From positions 3,249,501 through 3,313,500 of the forward strand of contig NZ_CP020370.1 in the NCBI RefSeq assembly GCF_002813775.1: a stretch of 64,000 bases of DNA. The letters run 5' to 3'. The notes below the pieces were generated by a model, which saw only the letters and a program-made list of their open reading frames with translations, had not been told where the DNA came from and searched no databases. Numbering within the stretch: the first letter of the stretch is position 1; the number at the start of each line of letters is the position of its first letter. Origin of the DNA: Candidatus Thiodictyon syntrophicum (GTDB lineage Bacteria > Pseudomonadota > Gammaproteobacteria > Chromatiales > Chromatiaceae). The translations under genes were made by a program, and so were the position numbers. Below, piece after piece: positions 48,107-63,835 of the stretch.

Positions 48107-51100
48107 CTACCAATCCAGCCCCGTGAGTGCGCGGAGCCCCGCCTCCGAGACAAAGTAATTCAGGTGATGACAGTCCACCACCTGCCGCACCGCGACCGGC
48201 TGACGCGGTTCCGGCACGCCCTCGATACTGACGGTACTCACCGCGATGTCATGCCCGGCCTCATGGTAAAGGGCATCGAACAGCGGCCCCTTGCCAAGCT
48301 TGGCGGTGAGCCGCGCGAGCAGCGGGTCGGCCCCCTCCTGGTAGCCACGGATATCCCCGGCCAGGATGCTGTAGCGCACGCCGGGGTCCTCACCCGCGTT
48401 GAGTGCGTTGATGAAGGGCGACCCCGGGTCCATCTGTTCCAGGGTGGGGGAGATCTTCTTGGAGCGTCCCAGCACCGTCAGCAGTCCGGTACCGAAGGGG
48501 GCAAAGGCCGGGAAGACATTGATGGCCCAGGTGGTCAGCAGGCCGGTAAGGCTGCGCGCGCTGTCGATCTTGCCGAAGGGCGAGCCCTGGTTGGGGGTGC
48601 CGCACATGACCAGGTGATCGACGATGCGGTTGCCGCCCTCCCGCTCGATCAGCCAGCGGGCGATCAGGCCGCCCATGGAGTGGACCAGGAGGGTCAGGCG
48701 CTTGTCATCCTGTGGGTGCAGGCCGGCGTCGCGCAGGCGGCCCTTGAGGGTCCGCGCCTTCTCTTCGATGCTGCCGCTCAGGTTCTCATAGTCGTAGGTC
48801 AGCACCAGGTCGAAGCGGGCGTCGAGACCGCGCCCGTCCCCGTCGCGGGCCAGGCGCAGGCCCTGTGCCATGCCCTCGGTGTCGCCGATGATGCCGTGGA
48901 TCAGAAGAATGAGGTTGCGGGCCGCGGCGACCTTATCGACCAGGCCCTCTGCGTGACGAGCGATGGTGCCGTCCGGCCGATACTCGACCCAACAGAGCTG
49001 GTCCACGTCGGTACGCTTGAGATAGGTCTTGAAGAAATAGAGCTTGAGCGCCTTGCCGAGGCTGCGGCGGTTGTCCGGGATACCGTCCGGAATACGGTCG
49101 ATGGTGACCCGCGTGCGGCCTTGCGCGTCGCGCTCCGGCTCACCCGCCAGTAGGATGTCCTCGCCGTCGAAGGTGAGCGGCAGGAGCTGCTCGTCCGCGC
49201 CGAGGCCCAGGTCGAGCGTCAGTTCCAGCGGTTGGGCCGCCAGGGACTCGGGGTTCGCAATATCCGTCAGTTCCAGGACGCAGGGGGACTCTCCGCGGGT
49301 GTCGGCAAAGCGCAGCAGTTCGAGCCCCTGACGTTCCAGGGCCAGCGAAAAGTCGGCGCCGTCGCCCGCCCCGCGGCTGGCGGCCGGGGGCGTGCCAAAA
49401 CTGACGCCGGCCTGGAATGCAGGGTGCCCCTTGATGCCGATCCGCCCGCCGACCAGGCTGAGATCGCGCGTGCCCACCCGGTCGGCCCGGCGCACCAGGC
49501 GGACCCGGATGGTCTTGGTGAACCACTCGTTCTCGTGGACCAACTTGGCGCGCGGCGCGCCGAAGGTGATCCCGCGGGCCTCGCCGCCCCCGCCGCGCGT
49601 GACGCGATGGACCTTGCCGATCTCCACCGGGTCCTGCACCAGCAGGAAGTCGTCGATGCGCTCGGTGCTGACGATGAGCTTGAAGAGGTGGACGGCCTCG
49701 TCGCCTTCCTCCGGTTTCAGGTCCAGGGTGAAGGTCGATGCGCCGCCGACGATCAGGTCGAAGGGTGTGTCCGCGGGCTCGATCCGCTCGTTGTAGACGA
49801 CCTGCATGGCGAAGGTGTTGGCGAGATAGGCCAGCGCGAAATGCAGCGGCTGGGCGCTGCGATTGGCGGCGCTCAGGCGGGCCTTGATGTCCCGCCAGGT
49901 AGCGCCCTCGCGGGTGATGTCGATGGTGAGGTCGTCGCCGGGGTAGACGTAGGCGTCCGGGTTGCCGGGGAGGACCTCGACGAACTGGAAGGCGACCGCG
50001 TCCTGATCCATCCGCGTGGCCCGGTTCTGCAGCGCTGCCGCCCGCTCCCAGTCGGCGATGGCCTTGAGCGCCGGGAAGAGCAGGTCGCTTGAGCAGTAGT
50101 CGGTGCCCTGGATCAGGCGGCCGGTCGCGGTTTGCGTGAGCCTGGATGAGCCACCCTGGGCACTCAGGCAGTAGGACTCGCCGCCCGCCCCCCCGGTACT
50201 GAACGCAAACCCCAGTGCCTGCCGATCCTGCGCCTTGGCCAGGGCCTCCTGGGCGGCCGCGATGCCGGCCGCGTCGCCGTCCAGGCGCACCAGCAGCGGC
50301 GGCACCGGCAGGCTGGTGACCTGGGCCTGGAAGCGCGCCGCGGGGGCGGGCGCCAGGTCCAGGAGGCGCAGTTCGCTTTTCTGGGCGCCGACCTGGGTGG
50401 TCGCGGCATGGCCGGCCAGGACCGCGGGGTCGGATTCCGGATAGAGGGCCAGTTCGACGACCTGGTCCGGGTCCGTGGGCAGCCCGTGCAAGGCGCCGCA
50501 GTTCGCCTGCCAGGCGCCCCGGTCGAAATAGACGCTGTAGCGGCCCCCGGACGGCGCCCCGGTGCCGCCCAGGAATCCGTTATAGGCATCGAACCCGGCG
50601 TAGGTCTCGAACTGCGGGGTCTGATTGTCCGCATAGCGGTGCACTGCCGCGCGTGCGCGCACGAACAGGTCCGCGTAGGCGATGCCGGGGCCGGACTGGC
50701 CGAGGACGTCGATCAGGGTACTGGTGAAGACCCCGCGGTGGTCCTTGGACTCCCAGGCCTTCTGTACCCGCTCGCAGGCGGCGAGCAGGATGTGCCGGCT
50801 GGTCGGAATTTCCAGGGGCTCACCGCGCGCCTGGCGCTCCGCGTACCAGCCGTCCAGATAGGTCTCCAGGGGGCGCTCCTCGAAGACCTCGTGGGTGTAA
50901 CGGGCGCGGGCCTGGGTGAAGTCGTCGGCGCCGCGGGTGGCCGAGCCGGAATGACAGCAGTCGAGCAGCACCGCGAGGTGCGGGCCCCGGGCGGCGACCT
51001 CTTGCAGCAGCACCGCCAGTTCCTTGTCCGCCAGGTCGAAACCGCCGGGCTCCCGGCTGTCGACGCACACCAGGCCCTCGTCGCGCCCGTCCGGGTACAG

Positions 51101-51394
51101 GCGCTTGAAGGCGGCCGCGGAACAGGAGCGGGCGCCGTGACCCGAGTAGTGGAACAGGACGGTATCCTCCGGCCCGGCCTGGCCCAGGTGGGTGCGAAAG
51201 CGTTCAATCAGATTGCCGCGGGTCGCCTGCGCGTCCGTGAGACATTCGAGTGCGAGCCGCCCCGGGTAGGCCCGGCCGAGCCAATCCGCGACGGCCCCCA
51301 CATCGTTCACGCAGCCTTGCAGCCGGCCGACCGACTGGGGATAGTCGTTGATCCCGACGAGCAGGGCATAGATTCGATTCGTGTTGTTTGGCAT
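48107..51394 (-). CDS. Caspase-like (C14) protease fused to a lipase-type alpha/beta-hydrolase
   Basis: 1095 residues from the ATG at 51394 (MPNNTNRIYALLVGINDYP). The N-terminal caspase/metacaspase domain (1-260) has His86 in FHYSGHG and Cys147 in LLDCCHSG, plus the opening ALLVGINDYP...GCVNDV. The middle (about 270-800) is beta-rich with no recognised domain. The C-terminal 270 residues form an alpha/beta-hydrolase: LLIHGIIGD oxyanion region at about 830, nucleophile Ser906 in LVHSMGGL, CGTPNQGSP, and candidate acid/base at Asp1049 and His1076/1077. Both active sites look complete. A protease that could activate a tethered lipase would suit a membrane-damaging suicide system. No TPR or sensor domain is present. 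It lies divergently just upstream of the BREX genes. Confidence 0.9.
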   Translation of the reverse strand: MPNNTNRIYALLVGINDYPQSVGRLQGCVNDVGAVADWLGRAYPGRLALECLTDAQATRGNLIERFRTHLGQAGPEDTVLFHYSGHGARSCSAAAFKRLYPDGRDEGLVCVDSREPGGFDLADKELAVLLQEVAARGPHLAVLLDCCHSGSATRGADDFTQARARYTHEVFEERPLETYLDGWYAERQARGEPLEIPTSRHILLAACERVQKAWESKDHRGVFTSTLIDVLGQSGPGIAYADLFVRARAAVHRYADNQTPQFETYAGFDAYNGFLGGTGAPSGGRYSVYFDRGAWQANCGALHGLPTDPDQVVELALYPESDPAVLAGHAATTQVGAQKSELRLLDLAPAPAARFQAQVTSLPVPPLLVRLDGDAAGIAAAQEALAKAQDRQALGFAFSTGGAGGESYCLSAQGGSSRLTQTATGRLIQGTDYCSSDLLFPALKAIADWERAAALQNRATRMDQDAVAFQFVEVLPGNPDAYVYPGDDLTIDITREGATWRDIKARLSAANRSAQPLHFALAYLANTFAMQVVYNERIEPADTPFDLIVGGASTFTLDLKPEEGDEAVHLFKLIVSTERIDDFLLVQDPVEIGKVHRVTRGGGGEARGITFGAPRAKLVHENEWFTKTIRVRLVRRADRVGTRDLSLVGGRIGIKGHPAFQAGVSFGTPPAASRGAGDGADFSLALERQGLELLRFADTRGESPCVLELTDIANPESLAAQPLELTLDLGLGADEQLLPLTFDGEDILLAGEPERDAQGRTRVTIDRIPDGIPDNRRSLGKALKLYFFKTYLKRTDVDQLCWVEYRPDGTIARHAEGLVDKVAAARNLILLIHGIIGDTEGMAQGLRLARDGDGRGLDARFDLVLTYDYENLSGSIEEKARTLKGRLRDAGLHPQDDKRLTLLVHSMGGLIARWLIEREGGNRIVDHLVMCGTPNQGSPFGKIDSARSLTGLLTTWAINVFPAFAPFGTGLLTVLGRSKKISPTLEQMDPGSPFINALNAGEDPGVRYSILAGDIRGYQEGADPLLARLTAKLGKGPLFDALYHEAGHDIAVSTVSIEGVPEPRQPVAVRQVVDCHHLNYFVSEAGLRALTGLDW

Positions 51395-51792
51395 CGCGAA
51401 TGGTCCTGTGGCTGGGTTTGGATCGGGTACCCTCAAGCATCGTTCCCGCCGGGCGTTCTTGCAAGCCGGCCGTCAAGGTGCGCCGACAGAAGCCTTTGCC
51501 GCGCCGCGGGTCGCACGCCGTGCTGCGCGATGCGGGCGGTATTCCCGCCGCTGCGCATCCTGCCGCCGCTCTCCGCCGCCATCAAGCGGCGCTTCGGCCA
51601 CCGCACCGTCACTCAGCCGACAGGACGCGCAACTCTATCCAGCACCTGCCTGCAGTGTGCGGTATATTTCCCGTACCGACGCAGTAGCGCCAACCGGGGG
51701 GAGGGGCCGACCCGCATGACCGCCGTCAAAACCAATCCTTAAGGACCAGGCAACACCATGGACCACATCGCGCACCCGCTCGCGATCTCCGC
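51395..51792. promoter_or_regulatory. Divergent promoter region of the caspase-hydrolase gene and the BREX operon
   Basis: 398 bp between two divergent starts. No gene is supported, and short plus-strand frames look non-coding. It must carry the promoter(s) of brxA and of the caspase gene; individual boxes cannot be named with confidence. Confidence 0.45.
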
Positions 51793-52608
51793 ATGAGCGC
51801 ATCACTCGAAGATGCCAGTCCCTTGGCGATCCCACCGCACGCAACCGGTTTCGGGTTCTCGCTGCGCCGCTCGGGTGGCCACCTGTCGCGCTCGATGATG
51901 CTGCCCGAGCTGCGTCTGCTCTTTGCGGCCGTCCCTGCCACCGCCGGCCGCGCGGACTACCGTACCGCCATCCTGGAGGGCAACGTACTGGGCAAGCGCA
52001 CCTTTTCCAGCCGCCAGAAGAGCGAGAAGCACCTCTACGAGTTGTACGGGCTCGCCCCCGCGCTCGCCCTGTTCCGGCTGCTGCGCCGCTTCGCCGCCGA
52101 GGCCCCCGACTCGCTTCCCCTCCTGGCCCTGACCTGCGTCTTCTGCCGTGACCCCCAACTGCGGGCCAGCTTTACCCTGATCGAGGCCCTGAAGCCGGGC
52201 GAGGTCCTGCTCCGCGCTCGGACGGAGGCACACCTGGAGTCGGTCTTCCCGGAGCGCTTCAGCCCGATCATGCTCGCTGGCTTAGCCACCCGGGTCAGCG
52301 TCACCTGGGCGGCCACCGGCCATCTGAAGGGCCGAGCGACGCGGATACGAACCCTGCCGATCCCCACCCCTGCCGCATCGACCTACGCCATGTTCGCCGG
52401 CTACCTCCTGGGCCTGCGCGGGGATTGTCTGGTGTCATCCGTCTTTGCGCGTCTGGTGGGGGCCGATCCAGCGCTCATCCTGTCACACCTCGCCCTGGGC
52501 TCGCAGCGGGGCTGGCTGCGCCTGCGCCACGGCGGCGGGGTGATCGAGATCGACTTCTCCGCCCTGTTACTGCCCGCCGAGGAGGCAATCCTGAATGGCT
52601 CGCGCTGA
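51793..52608 (+). CDS. brxA: BREX inner-core protein BrxA (DUF1819-like)
   Basis: 271 residues, mostly helical. GHLSRSMMLPELRLLFAAVP, ILEGNVLGKRTFSSRQKSEKH and LYELYGLAPALALFRLLRR resemble the winged-helix DNA-binding DUF1819/BrxA family, though it is longer than the classic about 200 residues and divergent. Position supports the call: it overlaps brxB by 14 bp and is followed by brxC. BrxA is a small DNA-binding component of BREX needed for phage defence. The start is uncertain as no good ribosome-binding site precedes 51793. Confidence 0.75.
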   Translation: MSASLEDASPLAIPPHATGFGFSLRRSGGHLSRSMMLPELRLLFAAVPATAGRADYRTAILEGNVLGKRTFSSRQKSEKHLYELYGLAPALALFRLLRRFAAEAPDSLPLLALTCVFCRDPQLRASFTLIEALKPGEVLLRARTEAHLESVFPERFSPIMLAGLATRVSVTWAATGHLKGRATRIRTLPIPTPAASTYAMFAGYLLGLRGDCLVSSVFARLVGADPALILSHLALGSQRGWLRLRHGGGVIEIDFSALLLPAEEAILNGSR

Positions 52609-53158
52609 CCAACTCCTGGCGAGCTACCGCCGCCACGTCTCCCTGACCCCGCGCACCAACCTGCCGCTGAGTCAGCGGGTGTGGTTCATCGTCTATCCCC
52701 CGGAAGACGAGCGCCGTATGGTCAACCGCATCCCCGAGTTCGAGATCGCCACCCGCGAGCACGGACTGCGCTGGCACCACCTGGACCTCAAAGGGGCCTT
52801 CGCCGACTGGATCGACACCTTCGACCCGGACGAGCGCGACGCCTGCCTGGCCGAGCCCGCCATCGTCGAGGACTACGCCGATCCCGGGCTGCTCGACTAT
52901 CTGGGGGAGCGCCTGCGTACCGCCATGACCGCGGTCCCGCCGCAGATCGCCACCACCACCGTCTTCGCCGTCTCCGGGCTCATGGACCTCTACGACTTCG
53001 CCCACGTCTCCGGCGTGCTGGAAACCCTGGAGGCCGACCGGCTGCCGGGCATCCTGGCGCTCTTTTTCCCTGGCGATCGGGAGGGCAACACCTACCGCTT
53101 TCTCGGCGCCCGCACCGGCTGGAATTACCTCGCCACCCCCATCCTCACGGAAGGCTGA
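52595..53158 (+). CDS. brxB: BREX protein BrxB (DUF1788)
   Basis: 187 residues. The DUF1788 pattern is visible: LPLSQRVWFIVYPPEDERRM, HLDLKGAFADWID, VFAVSGLMDLYDFAHVS and the C-terminal ADRLPGILALFFPGDREGNTYRFL with GWNYLATPI. Function within BREX is unknown but it is an invariant partner of BrxC and PglZ. It overlaps brxA by 14 bp; brxC starts 2 bp after its stop. Confidence 0.9.
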   Translation: MARADQLLASYRRHVSLTPRTNLPLSQRVWFIVYPPEDERRMVNRIPEFEIATREHGLRWHHLDLKGAFADWIDTFDPDERDACLAEPAIVEDYADPGLLDYLGERLRTAMTAVPPQIATTTVFAVSGLMDLYDFAHVSGVLETLEADRLPGILALFFPGDREGNTYRFLGARTGWNYLATPILTEG

Positions 53159-53160
53159 CC

Positions 53161-56100
53161 ATGTCCGACTCGCCCCCCTCATTCCCAAGAAATCGGGACC
53201 TCTTCGTCAAAGACCCCCTGACCTGGACCATCGCCAATGAGGGCGTCTCCAGCAACAACGTCGAAGACCTGGACACCCTGCGCTACGAGCTGACCACCTT
53301 CGTCTGCGAGGGCGAGTATCGGACCGGACTGGCCAAGATCCTCCAGGGCTTCCTGGACAATCTGGACCGAGAGCAGAAGGCGGCCTGGGTCAGCGGCTTC
53401 TATGGCTGCGGCAAATCCCATCTGGTCAAGGTTGCGCGTCACCTGTGGACCGACTCCCCGCTTCCAGGCGGCCACACCGCCCGCACCCTGGCGAACCTCC
53501 CGGACGACATCCGCGACCTGCTCCGCGAGCTATCGACCCGCGGCAAACAGGGCGCGGGGCTGCACAGCGCGGGCGGCACCATGAAGGCCGGGGCCGGCAG
53601 CGTGCGCCTGCGGCTGCTCGGCATCCTGCTCGCCTCGGTCGGTCTGCCGCCCAAGCCCTCGCGCGCCCGCCTGATCATGGACCTGCGCGACGATGGCAAG
53701 CTGGACGAGGTGCGCGGGCACATCACCGCGGCCGGCAAGGACCCAGCGCTGGAGGTGGCCCACGCCCATACGTCAAAGCCCCTCCACGAAGCCTATCTTG
53801 CCAGCTACCCGCATTACGGTAACCCGGCTCAGGCGGCCCAAGCGCTGCGGGCGGAGTATCCGAGCAAGGTCGACGACATCAGCATCGCCGATATGCTCGC
53901 CATCAGCCGCCGCGCCCTGGAGCGCGGGCGTCCCGCCCGCGATTCCCGGCCGGGACGGCCGGGCTCCTTTCTGCCCTGCACTGTCATCGTCCTGGACGAG
54001 ATCCAGCAATACATCGCCAATAACGCCGACCTCGCCCACGACGTGCAGGAGGTGGTCGAGGCACTCTCCAAAGAGATGGACGGCCGCGTCCTGGTGATCG
54101 GCACCGGCCAAAGCGCCCTGACCGACACCCCCGCACTCCAACGCCTGATGGGCCGCTTCACCACCAAGGTCCACCTGAAGGACAACGACGTGGAGCGTGT
54201 GGTCCGCACCGTCGTGCTGCAGAAGAAGGAAGAGGCCAAACCGGTCATCGCCGACCTGGTGTCCAGACGCTCCGGGGAGATCGCCCGCCAGCTCAAATCC
54301 ACCCGCATCGCGACCCGCGCGGACGACGATCAGGGCTATGTCCCCGACTACCCGCTCCTGCCCGTGCGGCGGCGCTTCTGGGAGCAGGTGCTGCACAGTT
54401 GCGACCCCAGCGGCACCGCCGCCCAGATGCGCACCCAACTGCGCGTCACCCATGAGGCGTGCCGCCTGGTGGCGGAGCAGCCCCTGGGAACCATCATCCC
54501 CGCCGACTTCATCTACGATCAACTCGCTAACGAACTGGTCACCACCGGCGAGTTGCAAAAGCGCTTCCAGGAGCTGGTCGAGGAGCAGAAGCGTCAACCG
54601 GACGGCCCCCTGCGCTCGCGCATCTGCGCCCTGGTCTTCCTGATCGGCAAGCTCGCGCGCGCAGGCGTCGACACCGGCGTGCGCGCCAACCCGGAGCACC
54701 TGGCCGACCTGCTCACCGAGGATCTCAGCGACTCCGCCACGCAGTTGCGAGCCAGCGTCCCCGCCCTGGTACAGGCCCTGACGGACGAGGGTGTCCTGAT
54801 GGAGATCGAGGGCGAAGTCCACCTCCAGACCACCGAGGGGGCCGCCTGGGAGTCCGAATACCGCAAGCGCCGCGCCTCCCTGCTGAACAACGAGCCCCAA
54901 CTCGCCGCCGAGCGCGGCCAGTTGCTCTCCAAGTCCATCCAGGCCGCGCTCGCGGGGGTCTGCGTCCTGCACGGCGCGGCCAAGGAGAAGCGTAAGGTCA
55001 GCATCCACCACGGGATGAGCCCGCCGGCCCAAGACGAGGGTCTGGTGGTCTGGGTACGCGACGGCTTCCAGGAGTCGGAGGGCGCCGTCATCCAGGACAT
55101 CCAGGCCCGCAGCACCCTGGATGCCACCATCCACGTCCTCATCCCCAAGACCAAGGCGGACCCGCTCAAGAACGCCCTGGCCGCCGCCCGGGCCGCCGCG
55201 GACACCCGCAGCTTCAAGGGCGAGCCAGGCAGTGACGAGGGGCGCGCCGCCCGCGCCGCGATGACCAGCCGCCAGGCCGGGGAGGAGTCCAAGATTGCCG
55301 CGCTGATGGGCGACATCGTGCGCGGCGCCCGACTGTTTCTCTCCGGCGGCCAGGAGTTGAACATCACCAGTCTCAAGGAGGGGGTGGAAGAGGCCGCCAA
55401 ATCCGTGCTCGACCGACTCTATCCCCAGTTCCACCTCGCCGACTCGCCCAACTGGCCCACGGTCTGGAAGAAGGCCAAGGAGGGCAATGCCAATGCACTG
55501 GCCGCCGTCAATTACCAGGGCGACCCCCACCGACACCCTGTCACCGCGGCCATCCTCGCCGAGGTCGGGGCCGGCAAGAAGGGGTCCGACCTGGTGTCGC
55601 GCTTCACCGCCGGTCCCTATGGATGGCCCAAGGACGCGGTGGACGCCGGCGCGGCCGTGCTGCTCGTCAGTGGCCACCTGGGCGCCCGTCTCCAGGCCCA
55701 GCCGGTGAAGATCGCCGACCTGGACCAGCGCAAGATCGGCCAGGCCGATCTGCGCGTGGAGCAACCGGTCCTCACCGCTGTCCAGAAGCTCAAAATCAAG
55801 AAGCTCTTCCAAAGCGCCGGCTACAAGTTCCAGCCCGGCGACGAGGCCGCCGTTGCCCCCGCGTTCGTCGGACTGCTCAAACAGCAGGCCCAGGCCGCCG
55901 GGGGCGAGGCTCCGGCACCGGCCGCGCCCAACCCGCCGGTACTGGCGGAGTTGCACGGCCTCTCCGGCAACGACCTACTCTACAAGCTCCACGACCGCGC
56001 CGACGACCTCACCCAATCCCTGGCGGACTGGCGGTCGGTCGCCGACAAGATCGACGACCGTGGCCCCAACTACGCCCTGGCCGGTCAACTGCTGGCCCAG

Positions 56101-56631
56101 GCCCGCGACCTGCCGGACATGGACGCACTGACCCAGACCCTGGAGGCCATCCGCACCAACCGCAGCCTGCTGGACGACCCGGACCCCACCGCCACCGTCC
56201 TCCAGGCCGTCAGCAGTGCCCTGCGCGGCGCCCTGGCCCAGGCCCAGACCGACCATGCCGACACCCTGGCCGCCGAGCTGGCCCGGCTCGCCGCCCATCC
56301 CGTCTGGGCCGCCCTGCGCGACACCGATCGCGCCGCCCTGCTCCGGGAAGCGGGCGCCGTGGCCCCGACCCTGCCGGCCGCCTCGACCGACACCGAACTG
56401 CTGGAGTCACTGAAGCGGCGCGACCTGCGCGGCTGGCGGGACCTCACCGACGCCCTGCCGACCCGCTGCGACCTGGCCCTGGCCGCCGCCATCAAGGCCG
56501 CCGAGCCCAAGGCCCGGCGTGTCAGCCTGCCGGGAGCCACCATCCACGACGGGACCGAACTGGACGACTGGCTCACTGAGGCCCGCGCCAAGATCGAAGC
56601 AGCGTTGGAGCAAGGGCCGGTGATTTTGTAG
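53161..56631 (+). CDS. brxC: BREX ATPase BrxC
   Basis: 1156 residues from the ATG at 53161 (MSDSPPSFPRNRDLF), the usual BrxC length. N-terminal KDPLTWTIANEGV and ELTTFVCEGEYRTGLAKILQ are family signatures. Walker A is GFYGCGKSHLVK (Lys85), Walker B is CTVIVLDEIQQYI (about 276-288), and the sensor-like VLVIGTGQSALTD follows. It is the large AAA-type NTPase that drives BREX. A palindromic repeat is inserted in frame just ahead of Walker B, at about residues 254-270 (ERGRPARDSRPGRPGSF), adding about 17 residues without breaking the gene. Confidence 0.95.
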   Translation: MSDSPPSFPRNRDLFVKDPLTWTIANEGVSSNNVEDLDTLRYELTTFVCEGEYRTGLAKILQGFLDNLDREQKAAWVSGFYGCGKSHLVKVARHLWTDSPLPGGHTARTLANLPDDIRDLLRELSTRGKQGAGLHSAGGTMKAGAGSVRLRLLGILLASVGLPPKPSRARLIMDLRDDGKLDEVRGHITAAGKDPALEVAHAHTSKPLHEAYLASYPHYGNPAQAAQALRAEYPSKVDDISIADMLAISRRALERGRPARDSRPGRPGSFLPCTVIVLDEIQQYIANNADLAHDVQEVVEALSKEMDGRVLVIGTGQSALTDTPALQRLMGRFTTKVHLKDNDVERVVRTVVLQKKEEAKPVIADLVSRRSGEIARQLKSTRIATRADDDQGYVPDYPLLPVRRRFWEQVLHSCDPSGTAAQMRTQLRVTHEACRLVAEQPLGTIIPADFIYDQLANELVTTGELQKRFQELVEEQKRQPDGPLRSRICALVFLIGKLARAGVDTGVRANPEHLADLLTEDLSDSATQLRASVPALVQALTDEGVLMEIEGEVHLQTTEGAAWESEYRKRRASLLNNEPQLAAERGQLLSKSIQAALAGVCVLHGAAKEKRKVSIHHGMSPPAQDEGLVVWVRDGFQESEGAVIQDIQARSTLDATIHVLIPKTKADPLKNALAAARAAADTRSFKGEPGSDEGRAARAAMTSRQAGEESKIAALMGDIVRGARLFLSGGQELNITSLKEGVEEAAKSVLDRLYPQFHLADSPNWPTVWKKAKEGNANALAAVNYQGDPHRHPVTAAILAEVGAGKKGSDLVSRFTAGPYGWPKDAVDAGAAVLLVSGHLGARLQAQPVKIADLDQRKIGQADLRVEQPVLTAVQKLKIKKLFQSAGYKFQPGDEAAVAPAFVGLLKQQAQAAGGEAPAPAAPNPPVLAELHGLSGNDLLYKLHDRADDLTQSLADWRSVADKIDDRGPNYALAGQLLAQARDLPDMDALTQTLEAIRTNRSLLDDPDPTATVLQAVSSALRGALAQAQTDHADTLAAELARLAAHPVWAALRDTDRAALLREAGAVAPTLPAASTDTELLESLKRRDLRGWRDLTDALPTRCDLALAAAIKAAEPKARRVSLPGATIHDGTELDDWLTEARAKIEAALEQGPVIL
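53919..53970. repeat. In-frame palindromic repeat inside brxC
   Basis: gagcgcgggcgtcccgcccgcg followed by cggccgggacggccgggctc: two adjacent hairpins of the family found in pglX and between genes. They are read through as coding sequence. Confidence 0.85.
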
Positions 56632-56695: not shown

Positions 56696-56959
56696 ATGGC
56701 ACAGACTTTGGACCAACAGTGCAACTTCTGCGGCAACCGGAACCTCAGTGCCACGCACACCCGCTACATCCACCAACAGGATGGGGAGATGCTGATCGTC
56801 GAGGACGTACCCTGTATCGAGTGCGACTACTGCGGAGAACAGTATTTCGAGATCAAGACCTTAAAGAAGATCGAGGCCGATCACCTGGCCTTGGCCGCGC
56901 ATCAGAAGCAACCTCGCCGCACTCTCAGGGTTGCAGTTGAGGATTTTCATGCACTCTGA
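56696..56959 (+). CDS. MqsA/YgiT-type zinc-finger protein (antitoxin-like)
   Basis: 87 residues. Two CxxC pairs (CNFCGN and CDYCGEQYFE, with an extra Cys in CIECD) form the YgiT zinc-finger of MqsA antitoxins, including the EMLIVEDVPCIEC and YCGEQYFEIKTLKKIEA segments. The usual C-terminal helix-turn-helix of MqsA is absent, and no toxin (MqsR or DUF4258) gene is next to it. It lies between brxC and pglX, a location where accessory genes are often inserted. Confidence 0.75.
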   Translation: MAQTLDQQCNFCGNRNLSATHTRYIHQQDGEMLIVEDVPCIECDYCGEQYFEIKTLKKIEADHLALAAHQKQPRRTLRVAVEDFHAL

Positions 56960-57223: not shown

Positions 57224-60200
57224 ATGCCCAGCACCCTGACCAAGGACCAGCGCACGGCGCTGGAGAAGCTCACCCTCAAGGCCCGCGAGGCGGCAGAGGT
57301 CGCGGCCCGTGCCGCCCTGGATAACCTCGCCGTCCATGAAGAACGGCCGCGCGCCCACCTGGACGAGGACCAGCGCCGCCTGCGTAACCGCCTGCGCGCC
57401 CGCGGCCGGGCGTTGGGGGACCGGCTGGACCCGGGCGGCACCCAGTCCATCGACCAACTCGCCGAGGCCGCCGCCTACGAGCACTGGCACCGGCTGCTCT
57501 TCACCCGTTTCCTGGCCGATAACCACCTGCTGCACACCGGCGTCGAGCATGGCAGCGTCCCCGTCACCCTGAAAGAGTGCGACGAACTGGCCCCAGAGCT
57601 TGGCGCCCGCGACGGCTTCGATCTGGCCTGCCGCTTCGCCTCAGAGACCCTGCCCGGCATCTTCCGCCGGGATGACCCGGTGCTGGACCTGCGTCTGGCG
57701 CCCAACCACGAGGTCCAACTGCGCCGCCTGCTGGACGAACTGCCCGCCGAGACCTTCCGTACCGACGACGCACTGGGCTGGACCTACCAGTTCTGGCAGG
57801 CCAAGCGCAAAGACGAGGTGAACAAGTCCGGGGTCAAGATCGGCGCCCGCGAGTTGCCTGCGGTCACCCAGCTCTTCACCGAGGACTACATGGTGGAGTT
57901 CCTGCTCCACAACTCGCTGGGCGCCTGGTGGGCGGGAAAGGAGCGCGGGCGTCCCGCCCGCGATTGCACCACCGAGCAGGAAGCCCGCCAAGCCGCCGCG
58001 CTGCCGCCCAAAGACGGCTTACCCGGAATCGACTGGACCTACCTGCGTTTCATCGAAAGGAGCGTGGCCGTCCCGGCCGCGAACGGAAGCGCGGGCGTCT
58101 CGCCCGCGAATCCCGGCCGAGACGGCCGGGCTCCTTTCTTCGACCCTCATCGCGATATCGACATCACCGAGCACAACCTCCCCCACTGGCGCCAGGGTGA
58201 GGCTTGGATCTTCGTCACCTGGCGCTTAGCCGATTCACTCCCCGCCGACAAGCTTCGTCAATGGCAGGGAGAAAAGGCGTCGTGGCTGGTCCTTCACCCT
58301 CAGCCCTGGGATGCGGCCACCACGCGCGAATACCACGAGCGCTTTACCCAACGCATTGAAGACTGGCTCGATGCTGGTCACGGCGCCTGCATCCTGCGCG
58401 AGCCAAAGGTGCGTTGCATCGTCACGGATGCGCTGGCCTTCTTCGCTGGTAAGCGTTATGAACTTGGCGCCTGGGTCGTCATGCCCAACCACCTCCACGT
58501 GTTGTTCCGGCCCTTGGGCGAGCATCGGCTGCCCGACATCCTGCATTCCTGGAAGAGCTTCACCGCCAAGGAAATCAACAAACTCCTTGGGCACAGCGGC
58601 CCGGTTTGGCAGGAAGAGTACTGGGATCGGCTGATCCGCAACGAACGCCACCTGGACGCCTGCCAACACTACATTGCCGAGAATCCCGTAAAGGCCCATC
58701 TCCCCGATGGCGAGTGGAGCGGGAGCGTGGGCGTCCCGCCCGCGAATAGGAGCGTGGGCGTCCCGCCCGCGAATAGGAGCGTGGGCGTCCCGCCCGCGAA
58801 TGAGAGCCCGACCGTTCCCGCCGGGAATCGCGGGCGGGACGCCCGCGCTCCTTTTACCCCCGCCGCCGGCACCTTCGAGGGTTGGCCCAAACACGCCGCC
58901 GAGATCCGCTTCCTGGACCCCTGCATGGGCAGCGGGCACTTCCTGGTCTTCGCCCTGCCCATCCTCGCCCGGCTGCGGATGGAGGAGGAGGGTTTGAGCG
59001 CCGCCACGGCCATCGCCGCCGCGCTGCGGGACAACCTGCATGGGTTGGAGATCGATGAGCGTTGTACTCAGATTGCGGCGTTTAATGTGGCATTGACGGC
59101 GTGGCGGTTGGGTGGGTATCAGGCGTTGCCGGTGCTGCATCTGGCCTGCTCGGGGCTTGCGCCGAATACACCAGAGGAGACCTGGATTGCCTTGGCGGGG
59201 GAGGACGATCGGTTGCAGCGCGGGATGGCTCGACTTTATGCGCTGTTTCAGGATGCGCCGGTGCTTGGGAGCCTTATCGATCCGCGGAGTATTGAGGCGG
59301 ATCTCATCGACGCGGGTTTTGGCGAACTGGAGCCTTTGTTGGTGCAGGCTTTGGACGGGGGGCGCGATCAGGATGACGAGGGGCGGGAGTTGGGGGTGGT
59401 GGCGCAGGGGGTGGCGAAGGCGGCGGAACTTTTGGCGGGGCGCTATACGTTGGTGGCGACGAATGTTCCGTATTTGGGGAGGGGGAAGCAGGATGCGGTT
59501 TTGAAGGACTATAGCGAGAAGGTCTATCCGCAGGGAAAAGCCGACCTTGCCACCTGCTTCATATGTCGGTGTATAGACTTTGCCTCGCCCGGAGCTACAA
59601 TCGCGCTCGTCACTCCGCAGAATTGGTGGTTTCTGGGAAGCTATTTCAAGTTAAGAAAGGCACTCCTAACAGAGAGATCCTTTAATTTTATCGCAGCTCT
59701 CGGGGAGGAAGCTTGGCGGAGTTTTGGCGACCGTGGGCCGGTTGCGTCACTTGTTGGAATTACCAATGCCGTGCTCAAGGAAGAACAGTCGATGATGGGG
59801 ATTGATGCTATTTCCCTAAAGCAATTGAATGATAAGCTCTTTGAGCTGCGTGCTGGAACGGTTCGTAGGCTTAAGCAATTTGACCAATACCGCAATCCTG
59901 ATTCACGACTCGTCTTGGACACTCTCGCGGCAGGAGCGTTACTTTCTCAGCTTGCCGATTATGGCAAAGGGAGCACCACCGGCGATAGGCTGAGATTCGT
60001 GCGTGGATTCTGGGAGGTCGCATCTCTGGGCTCATCTAACCAGTTATGGCTCGATTCGCCATCAACCAATGAATTGTGGGGCGGGCGTGAGCACGTGACA
60101 ACCGTTTCATTAGAAGACTCGAGCCTAATAGAGCAACTGGGTTGCTGGATTCGAGGTCAAGAGGTTTTTGCTCGCGCCGGTGTCGCAGTAAACAAGATGC

Positions 60201-61558
60201 GCGATATGCAGCCCTTCCTCTATGCGGGCGAGGTGTTTGACGACAATATAGGTATCGTTGCCCCGAGTGATCCTAATGACGTTCTGCCGCTTTGGGCCTT
60301 TATCGAGTCAGGAAGCTATCTTCAAGAAATCCGCAAGATTGACAAGAAGCGAAATGTCACAGCCGCGACACTCGTGAAAGTCCCTTTCGACCTCGCCCAC
60401 TGGCAACAAGTCGCCGCCGAACAATACCCCAACGGCCTCCCCAAACCCCACTCCGACGACCCGACACAATGGCTCTTTGATGGCTATCCGTTCCAAAGGA
60501 GCGCGGGCGTCCCGCCCGCGAATCGCGGCCAGGATGGCCGCGCTCCTGTCCGCGCTCCTTTCCACGCCCCTCTCCAAGTCGCCGTCGCACGGCTGCTCGG
60601 GTACCGCTGGCCGCGGCAGACCGGCTCTGAGTTTCCGGACTGTCCGGCCTTGGGTCCGGACGGGCTGGAGGTCCATGCGGACGCGGACGGGATCGTCTGC
60701 CTGACGGCCATCAATCGGGAACTACCCGCGGCGGTGCGGCTGCGGGCGCTGCTTGCCGGGAGCGCGGGCGTCCCGCCCGCGATTGAAGGGAGCCCGGCCG
60801 TCCCGGCCGAGACTCGCGGGCGAGACGCCCGCGCTCCTTTGGACGAACAAGCCCTGCTGGCCGCCGCCGGGGCTACGTCGAGGACCCTGGAGGATTGGCT
60901 GCGCGACGAGTTTTTCGAGCAGCACTGCAAGCTCTTCCACCACCGCCCCTTCATCTGGCACCTCTGGGACGGTCGCAAGGACGGCTTCCATGCCCTGGTA
61001 AACTACCACCGGCTGGACCGGGCCAATCTGGAGAAGCTCACCTACAGCTATCTGGGCGACTGGATTCGCCAGCAGGACGCGGACGCGAAGGCCGACAAGC
61101 CCGGCGCCGCCGAGCGCCTGGGCGCCGCCCGTGTGCTGGAGGCCGAACTCGTCGCGATCCTGGAGGGCGAACCGCCCTATGACCTCTTCATCCGTTGGAA
61201 GCCGCTCGCCGAGCAGCCCCTGGGCTGGCAGCCGGACATCAACGACGGCGTGCGCCTCAACATCCGCCCCTTCATGCAGGCCCGGGACCTGGGTAAGAAG
61301 GGCGCCGGCATCCTGCGCGCCAAGCCCAACATCAAATGGGACAAGGACCGCGGGACCGAGCCCCAGCGCGACAAGTCCGACTACCCCTGGTTTTGGCACG
61401 CCGAGGAACCCCCGCTCGCCTGCCCCGGCGGCCCCGAGTTCACCGGCAACCGCTGGAACCTTGTTCATCTGACCCTGGCCCGGAAGCGCGCAGCCCACAA
61501 GCAATCCTCGCGCCCCGGACCAACGCAAGACACGGCTGGACCCGCGGAACTTTCTTGA
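57224..61558 (+). CDS. pglX: BREX adenine methyltransferase PglX with an inserted RAYT domain and translated palindromes
   Basis: 1444 residues, longer than typical PglX (about 1200). N-terminal helical part (1-240: TKDQRTALEKLTLKAREAAE, HRLLFTRFLADNHLL, ELPAVTQLFTEDYMVEFLLHNSLGAWW) and the methyltransferase domain from about 560: SAM motif I FLDPCMGSGHFLV (563 on) and catalytic NPPY-type motif as NVPYLG (Asn747). The C-terminal specificity part ends at 1444. Between residues 306 and 499 lies a whole REP-associated tyrosine transposase domain: LPHWRQGEAWIFVTWRLADSLP, HUH pair His423/His425 in MPNHLH, and Tyr483 in YIAENPVKA. Five palindromic segments are translated (239-248, 279-305, 500-543, 1092-1113, 1179-1206). 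BREX modifies one DNA strand at a 6-base site; whether this enzyme still works is unknown. Confidence 0.9.
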   Translation: MPSTLTKDQRTALEKLTLKAREAAEVAARAALDNLAVHEERPRAHLDEDQRRLRNRLRARGRALGDRLDPGGTQSIDQLAEAAAYEHWHRLLFTRFLADNHLLHTGVEHGSVPVTLKECDELAPELGARDGFDLACRFASETLPGIFRRDDPVLDLRLAPNHEVQLRRLLDELPAETFRTDDALGWTYQFWQAKRKDEVNKSGVKIGARELPAVTQLFTEDYMVEFLLHNSLGAWWAGKERGRPARDCTTEQEARQAAALPPKDGLPGIDWTYLRFIERSVAVPAANGSAGVSPANPGRDGRAPFFDPHRDIDITEHNLPHWRQGEAWIFVTWRLADSLPADKLRQWQGEKASWLVLHPQPWDAATTREYHERFTQRIEDWLDAGHGACILREPKVRCIVTDALAFFAGKRYELGAWVVMPNHLHVLFRPLGEHRLPDILHSWKSFTAKEINKLLGHSGPVWQEEYWDRLIRNERHLDACQHYIAENPVKAHLPDGEWSGSVGVPPANRSVGVPPANRSVGVPPANESPTVPAGNRGRDARAPFTPAAGTFEGWPKHAAEIRFLDPCMGSGHFLVFALPILARLRMEEEGLSAATAIAAALRDNLHGLEIDERCTQIAAFNVALTAWRLGGYQALPVLHLACSGLAPNTPEETWIALAGEDDRLQRGMARLYALFQDAPVLGSLIDPRSIEADLIDAGFGELEPLLVQALDGGRDQDDEGRELGVVAQGVAKAAELLAGRYTLVATNVPYLGRGKQDAVLKDYSEKVYPQGKADLATCFICRCIDFASPGATIALVTPQNWWFLGSYFKLRKALLTERSFNFIAALGEEAWRSFGDRGPVASLVGITNAVLKEEQSMMGIDAISLKQLNDKLFELRAGTVRRLKQFDQYRNPDSRLVLDTLAAGALLSQLADYGKGSTTGDRLRFVRGFWEVASLGSSNQLWLDSPSTNELWGGREHVTTVSLEDSSLIEQLGCWIRGQEVFARAGVAVNKMRDMQPFLYAGEVFDDNIGIVAPSDPNDVLPLWAFIESGSYLQEIRKIDKKRNVTAATLVKVPFDLAHWQQVAAEQYPNGLPKPHSDDPTQWLFDGYPFQRSAGVPPANRGQDGRAPVRAPFHAPLQVAVARLLGYRWPRQTGSEFPDCPALGPDGLEVHADADGIVCLTAINRELPAAVRLRALLAGSAGVPPAIEGSPAVPAETRGRDARAPLDEQALLAAAGATSRTLEDWLRDEFFEQHCKLFHHRPFIWHLWDGRKDGFHALVNYHRLDRANLEKLTYSYLGDWIRQQDADAKADKPGAAERLGAARVLEAELVAILEGEPPYDLFIRWKPLAEQPLGWQPDINDGVRLNIRPFMQARDLGKKGAGILRAKPNIKWDKDRGTEPQRDKSDYPWFWHAEEPPLACPGGPEFTGNRWNLVHLTLARKRAAHKQSSRPGPTQDTAGPAELS
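57939..57966. repeat. In-frame palindrome 1 in pglX
   Basis: aaggagcgcgggcgtcccgcccgcgatt, read as KERGRPARD. Conserved PglX-type sequence resumes right after it. Confidence 0.85.
58057..58138. repeat. In-frame palindrome pair 2 in pglX (left flank of the RAYT)
   Basis: gagcgtggccgtcccggccgcg, then agcgcgggcgtctcgcccgcg and cggccgagacggccgggctc, read as RSVAVPAANGSAGVSPAN with PGRDGRAPF. It directly abuts the first RAYT codons. Confidence 0.85.
58139..58720 (+). mobile_element. REP-associated tyrosine transposase (RAYT) module embedded in pglX
   Basis: About 194 codons in the same frame as pglX, with no own start needed. Typical RAYT order: HNLPHW, FVTWRLADSLP, DAGHGACILREP, ELGAWVVMPNHLHVLFRP (HUH), LHSWKSFTAKEIN, VWQEEYWDRLIRN, YIAENPVKAHLPDGEW. 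The family is Y1_Tnp/IS200-like and acts on REP hairpins. Both flanks consist of REP-like palindromes, which are the substrates such enzymes recognise. Confidence 0.88.
58721..58853. repeat. In-frame palindrome cluster 3 in pglX with a 27-bp triplication
   Basis: Three tandem 27-bp units (gagcgtgggcgtcccgcccg core), each read as RSVGVPPAN-type nonapeptides, then a short spacer and an inverted cgcgggcgggacgcccgcg, read as RGRDARAPF. The 27-bp period keeps the frame. Confidence 0.88.
60497..60561. repeat. In-frame palindrome 4 in pglX
   Basis: gagcgcgggcgtcccgcccgcg, cggccaggatggccgcg, then gcgctcctt repeated; read as RSAGVPPANRGQDGRAPVRAP. Confidence 0.85.
60759..60840. repeat. In-frame palindrome 5 in pglX
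   Basis: gagcgcgggcgtcccgcccgcg, then agcccggccgtcccggccgag and cgggcgagacgcccgcgctc; read as GSAGVPPAIEGSPAVPAET with RGRDARAPL. Confidence 0.85.
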
Positions 61559-61631
61559 TTGCCGGCTTTGCCGGTGCCACCATTTGTCTGCTCCGGTACG
61601 TTTTCCCGATCAGGCACAAGGAGCCAACCCA

Positions 61632-62993
61632 ATGAGCACCTCGTCGATACTGCGAGTCAAGAGCATCCAGGTTGATGGCCTCTTTGACACATTCGATCAC
61701 CGAGTCGACCTGAATCTGGACGAGCGCGTGACAATCCTGCACGGCCCCAACGGGGTTGGCAAGACCATGCTACTGCGGATGACGAATGCCATGCTCAATG
61801 GCCGGTACGGCCTGTTCCACGAAGTGCCGTTTCGCCGTTTCGCTCTGGATTTCACGGACGACACAAGCCTTGATCTGGTTGCGAGCGGCTTCGATGCTCA
61901 CAATGACAAGAGCGTGGTGCCTGTATTGGATCTGAGGCTATGGCGTCAAGGCAAGCAAGCGGAAACATACAGACTTCCGCTAGATGAGATCTGGTGGCGT
62001 AAGTATTCAAACAAAGGGCGCGCCGACACTTCAAGCGCGAAAGTACCTGCTTGGGTATTGGCCGCGAGGCTGGCTGAGCGAGAGTCATTGAGCGACGGCA
62101 TTAACGAAAGTCTATCGGCTGCTATCGCCAGCGCGCGGACCCTATTGAGCCAAGGCACAGAAGAGGATGAACCAGCGTGGCTCAAAGAGGCGAGAAATCG
62201 GATGCGCGTGCATGTAATCGAAGCTCAGCGTCTGCTGCGTGTTGCATTCAATGATTTCCGAAACGACGCTGCCGATCCGAAAACCACTCTGACCGTTGTC
62301 AATTACGCTAAGGATATGAGTGCCCTCGTCAAGGAGACGATGGCGCGCTATGGCCAGCAATCGCAAAGCCTTGACCAGTCTCTTCCCCAGCGATTATTGA
62401 ATGCTCGGGCAGCCCCCTTTCCCCGAGAAGCCCTTAAGCAGCGTATGCGGGATCTAGATACCCGCCGTGCCGAATTGAAGGAAATCGGACTGCTCGACGA
62501 ATCGGATAATCATCCGCTTGACAGTGGGGCACTTGATGGGCTGGATGAGTACCAGGAAAGCGTACTCAACCTATACGCAAACGATACCGAGCAAAAGCTC
62601 TCCGTCCTCGATGACCTTGCCAGGCGCACGCGATTGCTTTTGAATAATGTCAACCAGAAATTCCAGCATAAACATATCCGAATCGATCCGGATCGAGGGA
62701 TCGTTGCACAAGGTCGCAAGGGCGAGCGCCTGGAACTTGAACAGTTGTCCTCAGGCGAGCAGCACGAGTTGGTCCTGCATTACGACCTGCTGTTTCGAGT
62801 GCGGCCAAACACCTTGGTCTTGATTGACGAGCCTGAGCTGTCACTGCATGTTGCCTGGCAGAAGCGCTTCCTCCCGGACCTCTTGGAGATCGTTGCAACC
62901 GCTCAGTTCGATGTGCTGATGGCGACTCACTCGCCCTTTATCGTGGGCGATCGATCAGACCTGATGATCGGCTTGGGCGCGGAGTCGGTATGA
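61632..62993 (+). CDS. ariA: AAA ATPase, PARIS AriA-like
   Basis: 453 residues from the ATG at 61632 (MSTSSILRVKSIQVDG), with AAGGAG at 61618-61623. ABC/SMC-like ATPase: Walker A LHGPNGVGKTML (Lys44), signature LSSGEQHEL, Walker B LVLIDEPELSLHV and a switch His in MATHSPFIVG. A helical insert lies between. Paired with a DUF4435 gene by a 4-bp overlap, it matches AriA of the PARIS anti-phage system, which holds AriB inactive until phage anti-restriction proteins (for example Ocr) appear. GC content is lower than in brxC, so it was probably acquired separately. Alternatives are other AAA plus TOPRIM pairs. Confidence 0.78.
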   Translation: MSTSSILRVKSIQVDGLFDTFDHRVDLNLDERVTILHGPNGVGKTMLLRMTNAMLNGRYGLFHEVPFRRFALDFTDDTSLDLVASGFDAHNDKSVVPVLDLRLWRQGKQAETYRLPLDEIWWRKYSNKGRADTSSAKVPAWVLAARLAERESLSDGINESLSAAIASARTLLSQGTEEDEPAWLKEARNRMRVHVIEAQRLLRVAFNDFRNDAADPKTTLTVVNYAKDMSALVKETMARYGQQSQSLDQSLPQRLLNARAAPFPREALKQRMRDLDTRRAELKEIGLLDESDNHPLDSGALDGLDEYQESVLNLYANDTEQKLSVLDDLARRTRLLLNNVNQKFQHKHIRIDPDRGIVAQGRKGERLELEQLSSGEQHELVLHYDLLFRVRPNTLVLIDEPELSLHVAWQKRFLPDLLEIVATAQFDVLMATHSPFIVGDRSDLMIGLGAESV

Positions 62994-63835
62994 CGCTGAT
63001 CGACTACAAGGACGCCGGGGTAGTCGCCACCGAGGTCATCATGACGCGCCAACTCCACGCCGGCAGCTTCCTGATAGTGGAGGGCGAAGACGACCATAAA
63101 TTCTGGAGCCCGCGTGTTTTACCTGGTCATTGCGAACTCGTCATCGGCAATGGCAAGCCGAACGTAGAGGGGGCACTGGCGCGTTTGGACAGGGACCACT
63201 TCCGCGGCGCTCTCGGCGTCGTGGACGACGATTTCGATGGTCTGGAGGGGCGTCCCCGCCCTTCGCCTAATCTGATCGGTACGGATACCCACGACCTCGA
63301 GTGCATGTTGATTCGCTCGCCCGCTTTGGAGCGCGTTCTGGCGGAGCTTGCTGCTCCTGCCAAGATCCGGGATCTGGAGGCACGGCAGGGTCATTCTGTG
63401 CGGGATGCCCTATTGGAGCGTGGCTTGGAGTTCGGCCGGCTGCGTTGGGTGGCGCAGCGTCGGGCCTGGGAGATTCCGTTTCACAAGCTCGGACCCGAAC
63501 GGTTCCTCAACCGCGACACTTGGTTGGTCTCCCGGGACGATTTTCATGATGCAGCGGTAAGAACGGGCGCAGTCCCATCGATCGACGATCTGCATGCTGA
63601 GCTGGAAGCGTTACCGGCCGCCGATCCTTGGTCAATCTGCCAGGGTCACGACTTGGTGAGTATCCTGCGTATCGGTCTGACCAGGGTGTTGGGTAGTCTT
63701 AAGGCGAGCAAGGGAGTAGACGATATCGCGGCCATGTTGCGCAGCGCTTTCGACGATCAACAGCTTCACGGCGGCCATCTTGGCGCGGCGATTCGCGGCT
63801 GGGAGCAAGCGAACAAGCCTTATCTGGTGCTCTAG
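62990..63835 (+). CDS. ariB: DUF4435 TOPRIM-like protein, PARIS AriB-like effector
   Basis: 281 residues. DUF4435 hallmarks: SFLIVEGEDDHKFW with catalytic-type Glu31, GALGVVDDDFDGL with Asp79-81, and THDLECMLIRSPALERVL. The TOPRIM-like acidic cluster is intact. In PARIS, AriB is a nuclease that cleaves a host tRNA once released from AriA. Its length and the ATGA overlap with the ATPase gene fit. Placement next to a BREX operon makes sense if it guards against BREX/restriction inhibitors. Confidence 0.8.
   Translation: MTLIDYKDAGVVATEVIMTRQLHAGSFLIVEGEDDHKFWSPRVLPGHCELVIGNGKPNVEGALARLDRDHFRGALGVVDDDFDGLEGRPRPSPNLIGTDTHDLECMLIRSPALERVLAELAAPAKIRDLEARQGHSVRDALLERGLEFGRLRWVAQRRAWEIPFHKLGPERFLNRDTWLVSRDDFHDAAVRTGAVPSIDDLHAELEALPAADPWSICQGHDLVSILRIGLTRVLGSLKASKGVDDIAAMLRSAFDDQQLHGGHLGAAIRGWEQANKPYLVL

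Follow-up and report, generated by a model that had tools for sequence, protein, structure and literature searches.

A RAYT transposase and its REP hairpins in frame within pglX of Candidatus Thiodictyon syntrophicum, an insert that recurs at the same loop of the methyltransferase gene

How can the gene of a defence methyltransferase contain a complete transposase, together with its palindromes, and still be open from end to end? The question is raised by a 64,000-nucleotide stretch of Candidatus Thiodictyon syntrophicum (GCF_002813775.1, contig NZ_CP020370.1, positions 3,249,501 to 3,313,500 of the forward strand; hereafter the window). Here pglX, the adenine methyltransferase gene of a bacteriophage exclusion (BREX) operon, encloses a REP-associated tyrosine transposase (RAYT) domain flanked by repetitive extragenic palindromic (REP) hairpins. 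The complete genome of strain Cad16 is described as a PacBio RS II assembly of 7.74 Mb at 200x coverage in three records (PMC5944118). We consider it probable that the insert is a translated passenger REPtron in an exposed loop of PglX, which has reached this same loop repeatedly, in a homing-like manner and without splicing. The features that bear on this proposal are the following:

57224..61558, plus strand: pglX, BREX adenine methyltransferase gene, 1444 codons in a single frame through the insert (profiles and frame reading)
58055..58855, plus strand: in-frame insert (REPtron), about 801 bp or 267 codons, between YLRFI and TPAAGTF
58059..58133, plus strand: left REP group, GGAG, an 8-bp stem and a TCC loop, then more hairpins
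58139..58720, plus strand: RAYT (TnpA-REP) domain with H423, H425 and Y483 (profiles and alignments)
58721..58855, plus strand: right REP group, with GGAG-CGTGGGCG-TCC-CGCCCGCG three times in direct and once in inverted orientation
58916..58939, plus strand: S-adenosylmethionine (SAM) motif I, DPCMGSGH, shortly 3' of the insert (sequence comparison)

The first-pass annotation had described a RAYT in frame within pglX, and the sequence bears this out. The 1444-residue frame has zero stops, insert included, and no frameshift was found, so that the RAYT is an in-frame part of pglX and not a free-standing gene. It scores 83.0 bits against NF047646 (cut-off 80) as an isolated piece and 78.2 bits within the whole protein, and its match to PF01797 exceeds the cut-off of that model. 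The HUH motif and single catalytic Tyr of a Y1 transposase are present; H423, H425 and Y483 lie where they had been placed, and are invariant in nine of nine pglX-borne RAYTs and in all 14 RAYTs of a wider set. The hairpins have stems of 8-10 bp and loops of 3 nt, and flank the RAYT in both orientations. End points were placed by eye against the insert-free pglX genes of loci L056, L057, L064 and L069 and are good to a few bp on either side. The flanking hairpins of the span first proposed, 57939-58853, are real, but its first hairpin (57938-57964) belongs to a separate, earlier loop.

The host gene is also recognizable on both sides of the insert, as had been claimed. The PADLOC model PDLC02528 (PglX) gives 1398 bits over two stretches, the better one at 540-1428; the N and C parts are both matched, and motif I DPCMGSGH and motif IV TNVPY are present as in the family of this protein, with domain limits taken from PMC11341690. 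The motif IV core is NVPY in this family and NPPY in the Salmonella protein described in that paper. Against NF033452 (BREX type 1 PglX) the protein reaches 315.8 bits, below the curated cut-off of 500, and for this reason no NCBI BREX subtype is assigned to it.

The annotation had treated the case as a single one, and here the data say otherwise. When 190 relatives were searched with the PglX C part, 19 genomes gave matches, and among the frames read there L037, L041, L043 and L044 have a RAYT at the same pglX site as the window. Two further copies are partial: L049 has the RAYT at this site and has lost the methyltransferase part, and L046 retains a RAYT tail. At L046 (G076:C155) one frame runs from a BrxB-like start (recognized by eye) through the RAYT tail into the methyltransferase part of PglX, and resembles a deletion product. 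A pattern scan of named species genomes added three cases among the best 80 of 563 confirmed loci, which were ranked by a RAYT-bearing query and give no frequency. These are a Competibacteraceae metagenome-assembled genome (MAG; L055), a Chitinophagaceae MAG of the Bacteroidota (L058) and a Kuenenia MAG of the Planctomycetota (L059); at E<=1e-10 the profile search finds one RAYT match in the first genome, one in the second and two in the third. Counting the window, eight pglX genes thus have the N part, a RAYT and the methyltransferase part in one frame, in Gammaproteobacteria, Bacteroidota and Planctomycetota, the last two by MAG label; in L044 and L055 the C end is truncated by the contig end. 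A unique fusion or an assembly error was considered and rejected, as further genera, and MAGs assigned to different phyla, show the same architecture. In passing, L102, L106, L114 and L131 have two pglX genes or parts per locus.

In all eight genes the insert occupies one and the same short linker ahead of SAM motif I, beginning at most a few residues from YLR and ending near a conserved (W)xPAxxxF block; for L037 this block shows in one of the two comparisons made. Among 52 insert-free genes measured, these two landmarks are 7-16 aa apart in 39 and 20-47 aa apart in 13, and some of the longer spacers hold other translated palindromes (L035/L056, L036). In L035/L056 and L036 palindromes unrelated to those of the window are translated in the same two loops that carry REPs in the window gene, and because of this the two loops look like general repeat hot spots.

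Is this one insertion inherited by descent, or several arrivals? In the RAYT tree (54 rows; pieces under 165 aa left out) one clade (100/99) unites the pglX-borne RAYTs of L037, L041, L043, L044, L059 and the partial L049. In a second group (99/96) the window RAYT is joined by the RAYT of a brxC remnant (L169), one free RAYT, the pglX-borne RAYT of L055 and one hsdR RAYT; the pglX-borne RAYT of L058 stands apart, and the RAYTs of alaS and fabZ genes fall with some free ones in another part. The PglX tree was built with the insert omitted from 85 rows (84 different, L035 and L056 being the same record), eight of them RAYT-bearing; genes whose N or C part was too short, or which had no SAM motif, were left out of the PglX trees. 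It holds seven changes of RAYT state, all forced, against an average of 7.8 for shuffled labels, and the N-only and C-only trees hold seven each; RAYT-bearing genes are about as scattered among PglX as they would be at random. The approximately unbiased (AU) test rejects a single clade of pglX-borne RAYTs (p-AU 4.1e-5) and of all embedded RAYTs (1e-44), and a PglX tree in which the five complete hosts of the six-member RAYT clade are kept together is likewise rejected (9e-45, quick tree), p-values that flatter since the groups were named after the trees had been seen. Because the two trees conflict, one RAYT lineage is seen to lie at one site of unrelated pglX alleles in genomes labelled as two phyla. 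A shared site together with conflict with the host tree is the pattern of a homing element.

Hairpins flank the RAYT on both sides in the embedded copies examined. On the left they have stems of 7-12 bp and mostly TCC/TTCC-type loops, often preceded by a GTAG, GTGG or GGAG foot; on the right there are inverted or direct hairpin copies, and the stem sequences vary between lineages. For this reason we take the unit to be the whole REPtron, with its REPs read as protein. The RAYT itself is under purifying selection, with dN/dS values of 0.09-0.35: 0.15 for L043/L044 (dS 0.14), 0.14 for window/L169 (dS 1.1), 0.35 for L049/L041, and 0.10, 0.14 and 0.09 for L037/L059, L206/L210 and L207/L208, all three saturated (dS >2). 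For L043/L044 the ratio is 1.00 in the translated REP flank on the right (81 codons). AlphaFold2 predicts that the RAYT forms a folded domain attached by two disordered linkers, which the REPs encode; this agrees with the independent fold that the annotation had proposed to look for.

These observations suggest how the arrangement would work. Since no stop codon interrupts the REPs in this frame, a ribosome would read the PglX N part, a REP peptide, the RAYT domain, a second REP peptide and the PglX C part as a single chain. The RAYT would form its own HUH domain on two floppy linkers, and since it is predicted to fold separately, the methyltransferase could fold around it and BREX could still work. 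The RAYT would be expressed via the host gene and kept by selection for its own cleavage and joining of single-stranded DNA, presumably on the matching REPs of the genome. Several RAYTs would have arrived at this loop, one lineage having moved between distant pglX alleles, either by REP-guided HUH joining or by homologous recombination in the flanking pglX. The sharing of one loop across phyla may reflect REP-guided joining, recombination in conserved flanks or a filter by which only this loop is tolerant, and the data do not separate the three. At the level of sequence the proposal is carried by the frame, the anatomy, the catalytic residues, the recurrence, the tree conflict and the purifying selection; expression as one protein, BREX activity and RAYT activity would be expected from them.

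The REPs presumed to be acted on are dispersed in the genome, as is usual for the partners of a RAYT. The sequence GGAGCGYGGGCGTCYCGCCCGCG has 33 exact copies in 7,738,984 bases on three contigs, 10 of them within the window, and its reversed control has none. It is present in six of 194 genomes of the family, with more than three copies in two, the window genome (33) and G006 (21). In the window, one simple scan finds 15 footed REP-like hairpins, 14 of them within brxC or pglX. Apart from the insert, the in-frame REPs in these two genes are:

53917..53969, plus strand: in-frame REP pair inside brxC (hairpin scan)
57938..57964, plus strand: in-frame REP in another, more N-terminal pglX loop, aa about 239-247 (hairpin scan and homologue comparison)
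60497..60547, plus strand: in-frame pair of REPs in pglX, C-terminal part (hairpin scan)
60757..60838, plus strand: in-frame cluster of REPs in pglX, C-terminal part (hairpin scan)

A second RAYT of this genome (L002, G000:C1:2220661), 49% identical to the window RAYT over the aligned part, is out of frame with its upstream ferredoxin-like neighbour and has its own flanking repeats (by eye). That REP number tracks RAYT presence was tested and is unsupported, being contradicted by G006 and G007.

RAYT profile searches made blind to the host gene show that pglX is not the only host. In 194 Chromatiaceae genomes there are 32 RAYT matches at E<=1e-25 across 22 genomes; open reading frames were read for 18 of these, and for 17 of the 33 matches of the Kuenenia sample below, the remainder being judged by frame length. 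For nine of the 32 a recognized host gene continues in frame on either side: six in pglX (including L049), two in hsdR at differing insert sites (L165, L166) and one in a CARF-ADA gene (L167). At L168 the host is a DUF1156/HmaB gene, with a frame that stops soon after the RAYT, and at L169 the RAYT adjoins the brxC remnant, recognized by eye without a profile match. Among 99 genomes neighbouring the Kuenenia MAG, 33 matches occur in 17 genomes, and for seven the host frame continues on either side: pglX (L059), alaS (L206, L210), fabZ-like genes (L207, L208, L211) and an Eco57I/type IIG-like methylase (L212); in L218, a DUF1156 gene, the frame is lost after the RAYT. The 196 neighbours of the Bacteroidota MAG have 13 matches in eight genomes, only that of L058 in a long frame. 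In an even draw of 369 Gammaproteobacteria genomes 58 have a match at E<=1e-12, and no RAYT in a frame over 500 aa was found among them outside the window genome, which has the pglX frame and a 677-aa frame of a RAYT out of frame with the upstream gene. Searched against plasmids, the window RAYT has no match and that of L059 a single remote one (32% identity). Specificity for defence genes, suggested by the Chromatiaceae sample, was dropped once alaS and fabZ-like hosts appeared.

Among these hosts, alaS is an essential gene. The model TIGR00344 finds one alaS each in G607 and G628, in two pieces around a RAYT in one frame (1209 and 1170 aa; summed scores 774 and 803 bits, respectively), and the insert lies directly before the CGGTH motif. 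Five other genomes have one undivided alaS each over the cut-off, G630 with one weak sub-threshold match besides. If both assemblies are complete at alaS, the alanyl-tRNA synthetase (AlaRS) must work with, or despite, the insert. Together with the insert-free alleles, the predicted fold and the purifying selection on the RAYT, this gives good support to the annotation's suggestion of a tolerated passenger. A wider generalization is possible and more tentative: RAYTs with REP hairpins as translated linkers may be splicing-free homing elements that repeatedly colonize fixed, exposed loops in conserved genes (pglX, alaS, fabZ-like, hsdR and CARF-ADA), copy between alleles across phyla and ride on host-gene selection.

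Several points weigh against a tolerated, homing-like passenger. The loss of the methyltransferase part in L049 and the broken DUF1156/HmaB hosts of L168 and L218 mean that insertion is not always harmless. The alaS argument depends on the completeness noted above, and the genomes with fabZ-like hosts have further FabZ-like copies, for which reason these hosts are weaker evidence than alaS. The REP foot in the window is GGAG instead of GTRG (GTAG/GTGG). In G007 a REP type that occurs around pglX-borne RAYTs reaches 156 copies, yet there is no RAYT match at E<=1e-25, and in G006, with its 21 window-type REPs, a window-type RAYT was not found. The phylum labels of L058 and L059 depend on metagenome binning of contigs. 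L043 and L044 retain an ATG 13 codons before the LPHW motif of the RAYT. Finally, the window and L035 are 94% identical in the N part of PglX and 65% after the insert; a break near the insert from recombination is possible, and such N-to-C mosaicism of pglX makes recombination a possible vehicle.

Of the rival explanations, the one that survives best, and which we still think unlikely, is the bifunctional BREX protein that the annotation had offered: a RAYT domesticated as a single-stranded DNA nuclease/ligase, acting for example on replicating phage DNA or on REPs. The fixed PglX site in several phyla and the intact HUH/Y residues would fit it, as would the Chromatiaceae hosts, where all recognized ones are defence genes (pglX, hsdR and CARF-ADA, besides the hmaB gene with its frame lost and the brxC remnant). 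In addition, brxC, pglZ and brxL lie beside pglX in all three loci checked, L058 and L059 as well as the window. However, a BREX role is not needed, because alaS and fabZ-like genes in the Kuenenia sample host the same kind of RAYT; the flanking stems differ by lineage, most of the PglX examined have no RAYT, and the RAYT-bearing genes form no lasting lineage.

Somewhat less probable is that the insert has turned pglX into a pseudogene, its open frame being a recent chance read-through. L049, L168 and L218 are what one would expect of such decay, but the window protein keeps motif I and TNVPY and its match over both parts, dN/dS after the insert is 0.26 against the insert-free L035, eight open frames share one site on scattered branches, and the sole alaS found in two genomes has an insert of this kind. 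We give still less credit to a nested gene, with the RAYT made from an internal start apart from the PglX frame. The ATG of L043 and L044 would allow it, and so would an ATG at -5 from LPHW in L055; against this, L049 and L058 have no ATG, GTG or TTG within 60 codons upstream of LPHW, and in the window the sole candidate within that distance is a GTG 38 codons before the motif; no ribosome-site match was found there, and the RAYT has no start that would plausibly be its own. Moreover, a nested gene would not require a kept frame or a lost 3' stop codon. Removal of the insert after transcription or translation, leaving a mature PglX without it, is very improbable: placement beside conserved motifs (PglX motif I, AlaRS CGGTH) does resemble that of inteins, but Pfam finds no Hint domain in the window PglX at E<=0.001, Rfam no group I/II intron or IStron in the window region or eight other loci (the hits in the window being sub-threshold miRNA models on the hairpins), and the insert ends are REP hairpins.

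Inteins with homing endonucleases sit in frame at a fixed site of conserved genes, have a patchy distribution and a tree in conflict with that of the host. The pglX insert shares their placement and patchiness, and to this extent the annotation's word intein-like holds; it does not extend to splicing, as here there is no splicing domain, the nuclease is a HUH transposase and the host must tolerate the passenger.

REPtrons described in Escherichia coli and Stenotrophomonas maltophilia are tnpA-REP genes flanked by REPs (PMC6006769, PMC8266576). As these sources describe them, they resemble the window insert in the HUH motif and single Tyr, in flanking REPs of both orientations and in low copy number; the REP of S. 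maltophilia, a perfect palindrome of 8 bp whose loop is 3 nt long (PMC8266576), has the 4-nt foot, stem and 3-nt loop of the window REPs. The window REPtron differs from those described in being wholly an in-frame part of another gene. In tnpA-REP genes of subclass 2.4 REPs lie within the gene with the frame undisrupted (PMC6006769), that is, a REP inside a transposase, whereas here transposase and REPs are inside a host enzyme, the frame being preserved in both. The same work discarded a few Y1 proteins of unexpected length, taking them for gene fusions or annotation errors. Intragenic in-frame REPs are known, with one same-site case in recB of two Xanthomonas; the larger REP-encoded regions described there span 43 to 82 residues with no enzyme inside, the CGTC repeats are reported as showing no association with transposase genes, and Rickettsia palindromic elements are cited as translated in-gene palindromes (PMC3733652). 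In these cases palindromes are translated in frame as in the window, where a full transposase is included. The PglX/BrxX proteins of Salmonella and E. coli BREX, as described in PMC11341690 and in structures 8c45 and 9ewz, are without a RAYT insert. In open-access titles and abstracts, a scope that excludes most subscription papers and all preprints, we found no mention of a RAYT or REPtron built in frame into PglX or any other enzyme, and the annotation's remark that it knew of no described case holds to that extent.

The insert lies in a complete BREX operon, in the order brxA, brxB, brxC, YgiT-type gene, pglX and AriA/AriB-like pair, with pglZ and brxL past the window edge:

51793..52608, plus strand: brxA (defence-system profiles)
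52595..53158, plus strand: brxB (defence-system profiles)
53158..56631, plus strand: brxC (NF033441, 686 bits; start approximate)
56696-56959, strand not stated: YgiT/MqsA-type zinc-finger gene between brxC and pglX (profile)
61584-63835, strand not stated: AriA-like ATPase and AriB-like (DUF4435) pair, PARIS-like, between pglX and pglZ (profiles)

The pglZ of this operon (L053:1171-3618) also has translated REPs, and a large open reading frame of caspase-like peptidase/hydrolase type lies 5' of the operon at 48107-51436 (by eye).

If the insert is indeed a translated passenger, a family of transposases that looks domesticated would persist as a translated and tolerated domain of genes that the cell keeps. 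It would be a natural instance of intein-like placement without splicing, in which REP hairpins double as protein linkers, and transposase fusion proteins dismissed as errors could be real. What keeps low-copy RAYTs under selection would become testable. For BREX, the PglX loop just before the SAM motif seems to take a whole folded enzyme.
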